Part shown: positions 29,547 to 34,612 of the stretch, one piece after another
How positions within the stretch are numbered: the first letter of the stretch is position 1
How the letters are laid out: each line of letters begins with the position of its first letter
DNA from: Olsenella phocaeensis
GTDB taxonomy: Bacteria; Actinomycetota; Coriobacteriia; Coriobacteriales; Atopobiaceae
Length of the DNA stretch: 34,612 nt
Direction of reading: 5' to 3'
Assembly (NCBI RefSeq): GCF_900120385.1
Contig: NZ_LT635494.1
Location: 698,390-733,001 of the forward strand
Position numbers and translations under genes: made by a program
Notes under the pieces: model-generated
Told to the model about the DNA's origin: nothing
Database searches by the model: none
The model's input: the letters and a program-made list of their open reading frames with translations, nothing else

Positions 29547-30026
29547 CTACCAGCTGACGATGATCGTGCTGTCGTCGCGGTGGGCGTTTCCTCCCTCGGC
29601 GTCGTCTGATGCCTCGGTGCCGGTCTTCACGTCGTAGCCCAGCCGGCGCAGCGTGCGGATGAAGTGCACCAGCTGCGCGTTGTACTCGTTCAGAAGGCGC
29701 GCCTGCTGGATGGGGCTGATGAGCGTCTGCTCCCGCCCGTAGATGATGTCGCTCATTGCGTCCGCGACGATCATGTTGCTGTTCGCCAGAAGGTCGTTGT
29801 AGAACGAGTTGCCGCTGCCCCTGCCGTCTCCCTCGCCCGGTGCGAACTTCACCGTCAGGGACCTGCGGCCGTAGGTCGCGTACATACGTATGCGCGTGTC
29901 GGTCTGGCCGATGGCATTCTTCATGGCCCACTTGAGCGCGTTGCCCGACAGCGTGTCCGCCTCGGCGCGCTCGCGTCCCGGCTGCGCCTCGCCGGCGATC
30001 CTTCTGGCCTCGTCTGCCTCGAGCAT
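29547..30026 (-). CDS. Unrecognised 159-residue protein
   Basis: The frame starts at an ATG at 30026 with GAGAGGTG before it and keeps the genome's codon bias, so it is probably a real gene. The protein is soluble and has no signal peptide or membrane segment. An acidic/basic N-terminus (1-25) is followed by a region with MKNAIGQTDTRIRMYATYGRR, an Asp/Gly/Ser-rich turn (about 64-72), and a helical part (SNMIVADAMSDIIYGREQTLI; ARLLNEYNAQLVHFIRTLRRLGYDV). It ends in an Asp/Glu-rich tail with IIVSW. I recognise no family or catalytic motif. It diverges from the ECF transporter genes and converges on ade. Confidence 0.65.
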   Translation of the reverse strand: MLEADEARRIAGEAQPGRERAEADTLSGNALKWAMKNAIGQTDTRIRMYATYGRRSLTVKFAPGEGDGRGSGNSFYNDLLANSNMIVADAMSDIIYGREQTLISPIQQARLLNEYNAQLVHFIRTLRRLGYDVKTGTEASDDAEGGNAHRDDSTIIVSW

Positions 30027-30223: not shown

Positions 30224-30871
30224 ATGTCAGGTGAGAAGGAAGACGAGAAGGGGAAGGCCACCGAGCCCAATCGTGGGTGGGGGGTCCGCGAGGTCGTGAC
30301 CGCGGCCCTGCTGAGCGCGCTCACGGTGGTCATCATGTTCGTGGGGTCGATGCTCACCATGTTCTCCTACGACTTCGCGATGGTCGCCTCGGGCGGGGCG
30401 GCCGTGTTCCTCGCGGCGCCCGTGTACATGCTCATGGTGCGTCGCGTCAACCGCCTCGGCGTGACCACCGTCTTCACCACCGTCGCGGCGCTGCTCTTCT
30501 GCACCATGGGCAACATGCTCTTCATGCTGCCCTTCTACGTGCTGGGCGGGCTGCTCCTCGACCTCGTCTGCCTGCGGACGCAGCGGCAGCGCCAGAACCC
30601 CTGGTGGGCCACCGCGTCATGGACCGCGTTCAGCGGCCTGTACCTGCTCTCCACGCTGATCCCCTACCTGGGCAACATGGACGCGTACGTGTCGCAGACC
30701 ATGCTGGAGCGCGGCCTGGACCAGTCCTACGCCGACGCCTTCTTCAAGTACTACGGCAACCCCGTGTGGGTCGTCGCCATCATGATCGCCACCATGGTCG
30801 TGGGCTTCCTGGGCTGCCTCGTCGGGAGGACGCTCATGAAGAGGCACTTCGAGCGTGCCGGTGCCCTGTAG
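30224..30871 (+). CDS. ECF transporter S component, Trep_Strep family
   Basis: This 215-residue membrane protein has about six hydrophobic segments (near 25-47, 50-72, 78-96, 98-116, 132-150 and 182-204). Size, the opening VREVVTAALLSALTVVIMFVGS and the gene order S-T-A match the Trep_Strep group of energy-coupling-factor substrate binders. The substrate is unknown for most members; a vitamin, or a metal bound to a small carrier, is possible. The region before its ATG has an AGGGAGCG site. Its last 17 bases overlap the T-component frame. Confidence 0.75.
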   Translation: MSGEKEDEKGKATEPNRGWGVREVVTAALLSALTVVIMFVGSMLTMFSYDFAMVASGGAAVFLAAPVYMLMVRRVNRLGVTTVFTTVAALLFCTMGNMLFMLPFYVLGGLLLDLVCLRTQRQRQNPWWATASWTAFSGLYLLSTLIPYLGNMDAYVSQTMLERGLDQSYADAFFKYYGNPVWVVAIMIATMVVGFLGCLVGRTLMKRHFERAGAL

Positions 30872-31583
30872 GGTGGGCGAGGGGGACGCCAGGGGAGCGG
30901 GGCTCACGGTCGCCACGAAGGCGACCGTGCTTCTCCTGGCCATGCTGGCTTGTTCGACGAACCTGGGACCGTATCCCATGCTCGCGCTCAGCCTGTCGTC
31001 GATCGCCTACCTGCTGGCTGCCAGGGAGCGGCGCATCGCCCTGGGCATGCTGGCCTTCCTCGCGGTGCTCGGGCCGGTGTACGTCGCGTACACCTACTGG
31101 GGCGTCGCTCCCATCGTCATTTCTCCCATACACGTCTTCCAGATGTGGCACCTCTTCCCCGTGACGGCGGCCGCCTGCGTGCTCTTCATGACGCCTCCGG
31201 GCATGATCAGCGCCGCGCTCGCGCGGGCGCGCTGCCCCAGGAAGGTCATCCTGGGGGCCCTGGTGTTCCTGCGCTTCTTTCCGACCTTTGCCGTCAGCTG
31301 GCGCCTCCTGAGGGACGCCCTGAGGAAGCGTGGCCTCACGGCATGGCGCCAGATGCTGTCGAACCCACTGGACAGCTACGAGTACGTGATGGTCCCTGCC
31401 CTGATGTCGCTCGTGGACAGCGCGGACCAGCTCTCGTCCTCCGCCGTGACTCGCGCGGCGGAGGCTCCCATGGCGCGCAGCAGCTACTACCAGCGTCCGG
31501 CGGGGGCGCTTGACCTCGCCTGCGTGACCCTCGCCTTCGCTGCCTGCGCGGGGGCCGTCATGGCAAACGGGATGATGGCATGA
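30855..31583 (+). CDS. ECF transporter T component (CbiQ/EcfT-like)
   Basis: This protein has 242 residues if started at the GTG at 30855, which overlaps the S gene. A GTG at 30861 or 30873 is also possible, and no clear ribosome-binding site decides. Membrane segments are near 22-38, 40-55, 60-80, 100-118 and 221-240. The cytoplasmic part has the two coupling helices expected of EcfT: LRFFPTFAVSWRLLRDALRKRG at about 139-160 and SADQLSSSAVTRAAEAP at about 189-205. These grip the two ATPase domains. Its stop overlaps the ATPase start (ATGA). Confidence 0.8.
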   Translation: MPVPCRVGEGDARGAGLTVATKATVLLLAMLACSTNLGPYPMLALSLSSIAYLLAARERRIALGMLAFLAVLGPVYVAYTYWGVAPIVISPIHVFQMWHLFPVTAAACVLFMTPPGMISAALARARCPRKVILGALVFLRFFPTFAVSWRLLRDALRKRGLTAWRQMLSNPLDSYEYVMVPALMSLVDSADQLSSSAVTRAAEAPMARSSYYQRPAGALDLACVTLAFAACAGAVMANGMMA

Positions 31584-34500
31584 GCGGGCCGAGGCAGGAG
31601 GTCCTCTCCCTGAGGGGCGTCTCGTTCGCGTACAGGGGGGCGTCCAGGACCGTCGACGGAGTGAGCCTGGACGTCGCCGCCGGCGAGTGCGTGGTGCTCT
31701 GCGGTCCATCGGGCGGCGGCAAGACCACCATCATCCGACTCGTGAACGGCCTGGCCGGAGGGTACTATCCCGGCAGCGGTACGGGCGAGGTCACGCTGTC
31801 GGGGCATCCCGCCGACGGGCTTGCCCTCTGGGAGCGCGCGGAGCTCGTGGGCAGCGTGTTCCAGGACCCCTCGACCCAGTTCTTCTCGAGCCAGCTTGCG
31901 GGGGAGATAGCCTTCACCTGCGAAAACCTGGGCTACGACCACGACCGCGTGGTCGAGCTCACGGACGGGGCGATCGACGAGCTGTCGCTGGGCCCCCTGA
32001 GGGGGATACCCAACGACAGCCTTTCCAGCGGGCAGAAGCAGAAGGTGGCAATAGCCTCCGCCTTGGGCCCGCACCCGGCGCTCATGGCCATGGACGAGCC
32101 CTCGTCCAACCTGGACGTGGCAGCGGCCGACTCCCTGGGGCGCACCCTGCGGCAGCTAAAGGAGCGGGGCATGGCGATCCTGATCGCCGAGCACCGCCTT
32201 GCCTACCTCATGGGCGTCGCGGACCGCTTCCTGCTGGTGCGCGGGGGAAAGGTCGAGCGGGAGGTCACGAGGGAGGAGATGTTGGCCCTCCCCGGCGAGA
32301 CGCGCCTCTCCTGGGGGCTCAGGGACGTCCGGAAGACCATGAGGCCACAGCTTCCGGCTCCAAGTGCGAGTCCGGGACGAGGTGCCGTCCTCGAGCTGCG
32401 CGACCTGGGCGTCTCCTTCGGCGACAGGCGGGTCTTCCACGGTGTCTCGCTCGTTGCGTCCGCCGGGCAGATCCTGGCCGTGACGGGCGCGAACGGTGCC
32501 GGGAAGACCAGCCTCGCCCGCGTCCTGGCCGGGCTCGCGAGGCCGAGCCACGGGTCGGTGCTGGTGGGCGGGCGTCCCCGTGGGCGACGCGAGCTGCGTC
32601 GGCTGGTGTGGTACAGCCCCAACGACGTCAAGGCCGAGTTCTTCACGCCGAGCGTCCAGGAGGAGGTCATGCTCCTGGTCGCGCATGACGGGCCGCACAG
32701 GGAGCGCGCTCGGTGCCTCTTGCGCGAGCTGGGCCTCTGGGAGCTGCGCGAGCGGCATCCGATGACGCTCTCGGGCGGGCAGAGGCAGCGACTCTCCATA
32801 GCCTGCGGACTCATGAGCGAGAGGCCCGTGCTCGTGCTGGACGAGCCGACGAGCGGGCTCGACGCCATCAGCATGCGGGAGGTCTCCCGCGCGCTCCAGC
32901 TCGCCTGCGACGAGGGGCTCTGCGTCGTGGTGGTCACGCACGACAACGAGTTCATGCAGAGCTGCTGCACCCATGCCTACCAGCTACGACCGACGGAAGG
33001 AGCCACCATGCGCGAGCGAGGGACGAAGGGCATGGAGACCAGGGGGCGCGGCGAGCCGGCCCCCGGGAAGGAGAGGGCGGGGAGGAGGCAGAAGAACGCG
33101 CGCCTGTGGGCGCTCTACCTGCGGCTGACTAGGCCCGTCCATCGCACCATCGTCATCGGGATGGTCATGTCGGCGCTCTCGGTCGTGGCGGGGGTCGTCC
33201 CGTACCTCGTCGCGATCGCCATCGCCCAGGCGGCGCTGCGGGGCAGGCTTCCCGACCCCTCCACGCTCGCCCTCATGGTCGCCGCCGCCATCGTCTGCGC
33301 CACGCTGGACCGCATCCTCTTTGGTGGCGGGACGGGCGTATGCCACAGGGCGGATGCGGGGTTTCGCGTGAACGCGCGTCACCTCCTGCTCGACCACTTC
33401 TCCCGGCTGCCCCTCGGCTGGTTCGGCGAGCGCAGTTCCAGCGAGGTCAAGCAGGCGGTCTCCGACGACGTGCTGGGCCTGCACCAGACCATCGGCCATG
33501 CCCCGACGGAGGTCGTCCGGGCGCTGCTCTCGCCCCTGGTGCCGCTCGTGGTCCTCTTTGCCGCAGACTGGCGGATGGCCCTCGCTCTTCTGGCGTACGT
33601 CGCCGTCTTCGTCGTGGTGTCAATGGCCTTCATGATGCGCGACTTCGAGGCGCTTGCCGTGCAGTACAACGAGGCGAACGTGGAGCTCTCCTCGGCCGTG
33701 GTCGAGATCGCCGAGGGGATCGAGGTCGTGAAGACCTTCGGAAGCGCAAGGCGGGTGGGCTCGCGCTATCGCGACGCCGTGGAGCGCCTGTGCGACGTCA
33801 CCTTCGAGTGGACGAAGCTCACGGCGGGGCCCTTCAGCCTGTTGGGGGGCTTCATCTCGCCGGGCATGATGCTCGCCTTCCTGGGCCTCGCGAGCAGCCT
33901 GTTCGTGAGCTGGGGCTGGCTCGACTTCGCGGGTTGCGTGCCCTTCCTGGTGCTTGGCCCGTCCATTCCGGTCGCCATGCTGACCGTGACGTCGAGCATG
34001 AGCTTCCTGCGGACGGCAGAGCAGCACCTCGAGCACCTGGACGCGGTCTTCTCGGTGGAGCGGCTTGCCGAGGCCGCCGAGCCCCGCGAGCTTCCCTCGG
34101 ACCCGATGGGCCTGCGCTTCGACGAGGTCTGCTTCAGGTACGCGCCCGACGCTCCCCTCGCGCTCGACCGCGTGAGCGCGCGCATCGAGCCTGGCAGCGT
34201 CTGCGCGCTGGTGGGGGACTCCGGCAGCGGCAAGACCACCTTCGCCCGTCTCGTCCCGCGCTTCTGGGATCCCACGTCGGGCGACGTGAGCCTGGGTGGC
34301 GTCGACCTGCGCGAGCTCTCCTCCCAGACGCTCCTCTCCAAGGTGGCGATCGTCTTCCAGGAGAGCATGCTGCTCTCGGTCAGCCTGTGCGACAACATCC
34401 GGCTCGCCCGACCAGACGCGACTGACGAGGAGGTCGTGGAGGCGGCGAAGGCTGCGCGGATCCACGAGAGGATCATGGAGTTCCCCCAGGGGTACGACTC

Positions 34501-34612
34501 GGTCTTCGGCTCTGCGGACTGCGAGCTCTCGGGCGGCGAGGCGCAGCGCGTGGCCATCGCCCGCGCCATCCTGCAGGACGCCCCGGTGCTGGTGTTGGAC
34601 GAGGCGACGGCG
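31580..34612 (+). CDS. ECF double ATPase fused in frame to an exporter-fold ABC permease/ATPase (partial, runs off window)
   Basis: From the ATG at 31580 the frame is open for 1,011 codons to the window edge. Residues 1-250 form ATPase one (Walker A GPSGGGKTT at 42-50, signature SSGQKQKV near 149-156, Walker B LMAMDEPSS). Residues 268-470 form ATPase two (Walker A GANGAGKTS at 303-311, LSGGQRQRL near 398-406, LVLDEPTS). These are the paired ATPases of an ECF importer. No stop follows: the frame passes through QLRPTEGATM (Met477) into a basic linker, about six membrane segments (510-800), and a third ATPase (Walker A GDSGSGKTT at 879-887, LSGGE 983-987). The last part is of the exporter/YbtP-IrtA type. 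GGAAGGAG six bases before Met477 (33008) could start a separate protein. It overlaps the T gene by four bases. Confidence 0.85.
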   Translation, partial: MSGPRQEVLSLRGVSFAYRGASRTVDGVSLDVAAGECVVLCGPSGGGKTTIIRLVNGLAGGYYPGSGTGEVTLSGHPADGLALWERAELVGSVFQDPSTQFFSSQLAGEIAFTCENLGYDHDRVVELTDGAIDELSLGPLRGIPNDSLSSGQKQKVAIASALGPHPALMAMDEPSSNLDVAAADSLGRTLRQLKERGMAILIAEHRLAYLMGVADRFLLVRGGKVEREVTREEMLALPGETRLSWGLRDVRKTMRPQLPAPSASPGRGAVLELRDLGVSFGDRRVFHGVSLVASAGQILAVTGANGAGKTSLARVLAGLARPSHGSVLVGGRPRGRRELRRLVWYSPNDVKAEFFTPSVQEEVMLLVAHDGPHRERARCLLRELGLWELRERHPMTLSGGQRQRLSIACGLMSERPVLVLDEPTSGLDAISMREVSRALQLACDEGLCVVVVTHDNEFMQSCCTHAYQLRPTEGATMRERGTKGMETRGRGEPAPGKERAGRRQKNARLWALYLRLTRPVHRTIVIGMVMSALSVVAGVVPYLVAIAIAQAALRGRLPDPSTLALMVAAAIVCATLDRILFGGGTGVCHRADAGFRVNARHLLLDHFSRLPLGWFGERSSSEVKQAVSDDVLGLHQTIGHAPTEVVRALLSPLVPLVVLFAADWRMALALLAYVAVFVVVSMAFMMRDFEALAVQYNEANVELSSAVVEIAEGIEVVKTFGSARRVGSRYRDAVERLCDVTFEWTKLTAGPFSLLGGFISPGMMLAFLGLASSLFVSWGWLDFAGCVPFLVLGPSIPVAMLTVTSSMSFLRTAEQHLEHLDAVFSVERLAEAAEPRELPSDPMGLRFDEVCFRYAPDAPLALDRVSARIEPGSVCALVGDSGSGKTTFARLVPRFWDPTSGDVSLGGVDLRELSSQTLLSKVAIVFQESMLLSVSLCDNIRLARPDATDEEVVEAAKAARIHERIMEFPQGYDSVFGSADCELSGGEAQRVAIARAILQDAPVLVLDEATA
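33008..34612 (+). CDS. Possible internal translation start of the exporter-fold half (partial)
   Basis: An ATG at 33008-33010, in the same frame as the upstream ATPase, has GGAAGGAG six bases before it. This is one of the best ribosome-binding sites in the window. Started here, the product is a normal half-transporter: a basic N-terminus (about 40 residues), transmembrane helices, Walker A near residue 403 (34214), signature LSGGE near 507, and Walker B at the window edge. Such proteins usually work as pairs, so a second half-transporter is likely just outside the window. Both a fused and a free form may be made. Confidence 0.55.
   Translation, partial: MRERGTKGMETRGRGEPAPGKERAGRRQKNARLWALYLRLTRPVHRTIVIGMVMSALSVVAGVVPYLVAIAIAQAALRGRLPDPSTLALMVAAAIVCATLDRILFGGGTGVCHRADAGFRVNARHLLLDHFSRLPLGWFGERSSSEVKQAVSDDVLGLHQTIGHAPTEVVRALLSPLVPLVVLFAADWRMALALLAYVAVFVVVSMAFMMRDFEALAVQYNEANVELSSAVVEIAEGIEVVKTFGSARRVGSRYRDAVERLCDVTFEWTKLTAGPFSLLGGFISPGMMLAFLGLASSLFVSWGWLDFAGCVPFLVLGPSIPVAMLTVTSSMSFLRTAEQHLEHLDAVFSVERLAEAAEPRELPSDPMGLRFDEVCFRYAPDAPLALDRVSARIEPGSVCALVGDSGSGKTTFARLVPRFWDPTSGDVSLGGVDLRELSSQTLLSKVAIVFQESMLLSVSLCDNIRLARPDATDEEVVEAAKAARIHERIMEFPQGYDSVFGSADCELSGGEAQRVAIARAILQDAPVLVLDEATA

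Follow-up and report, generated by a model that had tools for sequence, protein, structure and literature searches.

Does Olsenella phocaeensis make one protein that joins the double ATPase of an ECF importer to an exporter-fold ABC half-transporter, or do two ordinarily separate genes share a frame by the loss of a single stop codon? The question is raised by the end of the window, as the whole stretch of 34,612 nucleotides analyzed here is called. From the ATG at position 31580, the forward strand stays open for 1011 codons with no stop, as far as the window extends, so the uninterrupted frame described in the initial annotation is real in this assembly. Its description of three ATPase domains and one exporter-type membrane domain agrees with Pfam, which finds three ABC_tran stretches and one ABC_membrane domain (residues 526-791) in frame 31580-34612, in the order two ECF-type ATPase domains, exporter-type membrane domain, and third ATPase domain.

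The first part of the frame (31580..33007, forward strand; residues 1-476) is a double ECF ATPase, A1-A2 (hereafter A), and the relatives stop here. It carries two ABC_tran domains with ABC motifs and matches the cbiO and ECF_ATPase models, with cbiO above its cut-off. Walker A motifs GPSGGGKTT and GANGAGKTS and signatures SSGQKQK and LSGGQRQR can be read directly from the translation. The second part, E1 (33008..34612, forward strand), has the makeup of an exporter-fold (type IV) half-transporter, in which an ABC_membrane TMD (PF00664, 78.8 bits, residues 526-791) is followed by its own NBD (ABC_tran, PF00005, residues 862-1011), the latter cut by an assembly gap. E1 is 73-74% identical to separately encoded E1 proteins in genomes G036 and G337. 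Homology to E1 starts near the ATG at 33008, which is probably the native start.

Three further components complete the operon, which reads S component, T component (CbiQ), A plus E1, and E2. The S component of the ECF transporter (30224..30871, forward strand, 215 aa) belongs to a known family, Trep_Strep or “MptD family putative ECF transporter S component” (PF09605, E 1.5e-43; TIGR02185, 121.8 bits against a cut-off of 76.45). The T component (30855..31583, forward strand, from the ORF list; exact start uncertain) is a CbiQ-like transmembrane coupling protein of the CbiQ/EcfT type (PF02361, E 8.3e-11, 42.4 bits against a cut-off of 25); the ATPase gene begins at an ATG that overlaps the stop of the T gene. 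E2 lies beyond the window, which ends inside the third ATPase domain, the NBD of E1. The next base is a single N (L009:6003), past which the sequence resumes within E2, so that an assembly gap takes up the last part of E1 and the first part of E2, to about residue 234. What remains of E2 is 74% identical to residues 234-573 of a Gordonibacter E2, identifying it as the heterodimer partner of E1.

About 80 one-N gaps and several longer N runs occur in 511 kb sampled from the genome (L142-L161), and damaged Nextera adapter (mosaic-end) remnants lie beside some gaps (e.g., L151:5357 and L159:4512). The assembly is a scaffolded and noisy draft, and any other unusual frame in this genome should be treated with caution given these gaps and remnants. 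Given how often one-N gaps occur here, the terminal N was taken to mark an assembly gap, and a real deletion joining E1 to E2 was rejected.

At the junction, the codons CAT GCC TAC CAG CTA CGA CCG ACG GAA GGA GCC ACC ATG encode His-Ala-Tyr-Gln-Leu-Arg-Pro-Thr-Glu-Gly-Ala-Thr-Met477, and re-reading gave the same residues from Gln to Met477 as the initial annotation. The stretch from CGA to the last ACC (32987..33007, forward strand) contains no stop. A Shine-Dalgarno-like sequence, GGAAGGAG (32995..33002, forward strand), lies 5 nt before the ATG at 33008, with a predicted anti-Shine-Dalgarno duplex of -8.0 kcal/mol, compared with -8.7 to -9.2 kcal/mol before E1 in relatives. The strong internal ribosome-binding site reported earlier is thus retained together with its ATG.

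The nearest full-length relatives are found in G337 (67% identity), G313 (64%), and G353 (Gordonibacter sp. Marseille-P4307, L047; 62-63%), all with the five genes in the order and frame seen in the window. Each has an in-frame stop between A and E1, TAA in G337 and TAG in G313 and G353, located 2, 3, and 3 codons, respectively, after the last conserved Leu of A. Their E1 Shine-Dalgarno sequence and ATG follow directly past the stop or about 25 codons on. The initial annotation had proposed looking for a stop before the internal ATG in orthologues, and it is present in all three. An open junction requires the loss of just one stop, and the region has a G+C content of 70%, which raises the question of whether the shared frame is more than chance; what makes it noteworthy is that all three nearest relatives keep a stop in that frame. 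The junction codons CGA, GAA, and GGA are each one base away from a stop. CGA, one step from TGA, was considered as the site of the lost stop and dropped because the alignment is ambiguous, the TAA of G337 facing CCG in a gapless alignment and CGA in a gapped one.

Trees built for E1 (36 rows) and for A (26 rows) both nest the window in a clade with separate genes (SH-aLRT 100 in each). Judged by these sequence trees, the fused state is private to the genome of the window, which is one noisy draft. Orthologues that are always two separate genes had been named in advance as grounds for giving up the fusion, and two separate genes are what the orthologous clade carries. Among the relatives, G036 (L069, G036:C1:1895000-1909000) has a 73% identical E1 plus E2 without adjoining S, T, and A genes, and its E1 start region is nearly identical to that of G337. 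This would fit loss of the ECF part or a move of the E1/E2 pair on its own.

We consider it fairly probable that a recent loss of a stop codon placed A and E1 in one frame and that both AA-E1 and free E1 are made. A and E1 would ordinarily be separate, co-transcribed genes of a five-component uptake module. The stop of A would have been lost, most likely by a real substitution, with the flanking frames happening to agree, and ribosomes finishing A would then continue into E1 to give an AA-E1 fusion. The intact ribosome site and ATG of E1 would allow free E1 to be made as well, but not free A. The stop loss that the initial annotation offered as one option is supported by the TAA or TAG in the three relatives (62-67%) and by the trees of A and E1. 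Its other option, production of both fused and free forms, survives in part: free E1 may still arise from the ATG at 33008, but a free double ATPase is impossible because no stop follows A.

The main rival to a real substitution is a base error in this poor draft. In that case, the true genome would have a stop (e.g., TGA for CGA at 32987-32989) and A and E1 would be ordinary separate genes, as expected from the stop in all three nearest relatives, the junction codons that are one base from a stop, and the density of one-N gaps and Nextera remnants. Yet the nearest N lies 1.6 kb from the junction, the S, T, A, and E1 frames are otherwise intact, and a short-read consensus seldom carries substitution errors away from its contig ends. 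Such an error is therefore an unlikely source of the open frame.

Whether an AA-E1 protein could work is addressed by true fusions elsewhere, owing to which the architecture is not unique to the window. A search with a fused protein as query found a clade of ten A-E1 fusions in ten Coriobacteriia genomes of two families (G024, G025, G026, G031, G032, G041, G124, G126, G328, and G339; loci L072:3876-7169, L070, L071, L138, L139, L073, L025, L026, L024, and L020). These proteins have about 1,100 residues, group with an SH-aLRT of 99, and share the conserved linker YPLD..G..RV..YF.S...S.KR, in which no ATG with a ribosome site was found. Where flanks were read, S and T lie upstream and E2 downstream of A-E1, so that the order S, T, A1-A2-TMD-NBD, E2 and the domain string are those of the window. 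Since truly fused homologues exist, the AA-E1 fusion would probably be tolerated and still functional.

Membership of the window in this clade was considered, as both match end to end, and is ruled out by the trees and the linker. The fused proteins form a separate clade (32-36% identity) with a conserved linker and without an internal ribosome site and ATG, whereas the window groups with its unfused kin on the A and E1 trees (SH-aLRT 100), lacks YPLD..G..RV..YF, and has an internal ATG with a Shine-Dalgarno sequence. Two further in-frame A-E1 pairs, in G318 (L129) and G339:C19 (L127), also lie outside the fused clade on the trees, and each carries, as the window does, a Shine-Dalgarno-like site at an internal ATG. 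No fused members beyond those already known were found in a phylum sample of 346 genomes. Two other candidates were rejected: G207, where A and E1 map as separate ORFs despite a 1157-codon open frame, and G409, where a TGA lies between A and E1.

A predicted model of the fused family ends A2 in a hairpin and a helix, followed by a flexible stretch of about 15 residues and then the membrane domain. With pLDDT 74 and pTM 0.51 from nine sequences, its confidence is moderate, and it was used just for the layout of the junction.

These fusions might be taken to mean that the fusion in the window, too, is functional and selected, fixing the stoichiometry and position of A and E1, with the internal start a mere relic. 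The ten-member clade fuses A to E1 through a conserved linker with no Shine-Dalgarno-preceded ATG, its predicted fold leaves a flexible stretch before the membrane domain, and the in-frame pairs of G318 and G339:C19 imply several label changes on the trees, all of which would suit selection for fusion. The window, however, stands outside that clade with an unrelated linker and retains a strong E1 start, and one genome shows no sign of selection. We hold selection on this particular fusion to be quite improbable and retain recent stop loss as the preferred reading.

By itself, the window is one stop loss or base error in a common operon type. The broader and weightier finding is the recurrent fusion of an ECF ATPase to an exporter-fold half-transporter in Coriobacteriia. 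In this class, an ECF ATPase pair and such a half-transporter are stably fused in nature, and gene fusion is a strong hint of joint action of two proteins. The recurrence of A-E1 fusion among these sequences suggests that the ECF importer and the exporter-fold pair work together. The five components occur in two orders, S-T-A-E1-E2 and, in six loci, E1-E2-S-T-A, which likewise suggests a functional link between them. A bolder reading takes the repeated fusion (the ten-member clade, G318, G339:C19, and perhaps the window) as a sign that the ECF importer and E1/E2 form one physical five-part machine. We regard this as speculative and unlikely. If true, the ECF ATPase would lie next to the ATPase of E1, and the whole would amount to a composite ABC transporter that combines two transport cores with four ATP-binding domains.

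The initial annotation saw in the fused frame an importer tied to an exporter-fold transporter. Such a tie is plausible, although a single noisy draft is insufficient for it and the truly fused clade is the better evidence, and the “exporter” may itself be an importer. Among half-transporters of solved structure, E1 is closest to IrtA (1.3e-78) and YbtP (5.9e-70), compared with 6e-48 for Sav1866. As E1 is most like the exporter-fold importers IrtA and YbtP, an “importer tied to an exporter” may equal an importer tied to an importer. YbtPQ and IrtAB, which contain the closest half-transporters of solved structure, import siderophores with an exporter fold. IrtA has an extra N-terminal cytoplasmic domain, reminiscent of the N-terminal extension of E1 in the window, but it is not an ATPase pair, and unlike E1 in the window, YbtPQ and IrtAB have no ECF partner. 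Comparison with these proteins makes it more likely that E1/E2 is an importer than an exporter, and E1/E2 may be an exporter-fold importer of the YbtPQ/IrtAB kind.

The closest described system, compared by its described gene set, is the equibactin locus of Streptococcus equi (ICESe2), where an importer lies beside two exporter-fold halves. There, the EqbHIJ importer is required for importing the siderophore's iron, and the adjoining eqbK and eqbL encode ABC half-transporters that have an exporter fold and resemble YbtP and YbtQ (PMC3672683). In S. equi, eqbKL is dispensable for import and has a possible role in efflux (PMC3672683). A similar import locus in S. lugdunensis has been called ECF-type (PMC12709192). 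In the equibactin locus, the ATPase is encoded apart from the exporter halves, and a siderophore synthetase cluster adjoins these genes, whereas in the window a single frame covers A and E1 and the surroundings of the module are a uric-acid degradation region. The sifABCDE genes of Bifidobacterium were considered as a relative and set aside, as they use FtsX-type permeases.

The equibactin work also supplies the best case for E1/E2 as a genuine exporter (e.g., of a siderophore or a toxic ligand) that merely shares the operon of the ECF importer, the fusion then being neutral. Import was not blocked by deletion of eqbKL, and siderophore activity in the supernatant dropped to about half (PMC3672683); the protein fold is that of exporters. 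E1, on the other hand, is a closer match to the importers IrtA and YbtP than to bacterial exporters with solved structures, and, as an incidental observation, biosynthesis genes were not noticed adjoining the module of the window. Export thus seems doubtful. With E1/E2 as a putative importer, S-T-A and E1/E2 may share one small ligand in chelated form, by analogy with the equibactin locus, and the most likely predicted function of the module is to take up a metal chelate or a small ligand like it. The equibactin work left open whether EqbKL cooperates with the EqbHIJ importer, serves efflux, or has no part in either; with the fused proteins, that question can be put to the test by purifying them, solving their structure, and assaying uptake.

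The module interrupts genes for anaerobic uric-acid degradation (window 8481-29373 and L009 7000-14001), a pathway described in PMC12507026. Upstream lie ygfK, a selenium-dependent xanthine dehydrogenase, and adenine deaminase; downstream translations, judged by eye, resemble ygeX, ygeY, ygeW, a ModE/MobA-like protein, and hyuA. Such neighbors were not found beside relatives of the module within the flanks read, so the module probably arrived here as one block, and its function need not concern purines. A 159-aa open frame on the reverse strand (29547-30026) lies between the genes for adenine deaminase and the S component; NCBIfam gives no match for it, and related modules have no homologue of it alongside. 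The same genome carries two more modules of the same type, and A and E1 are separate in both.
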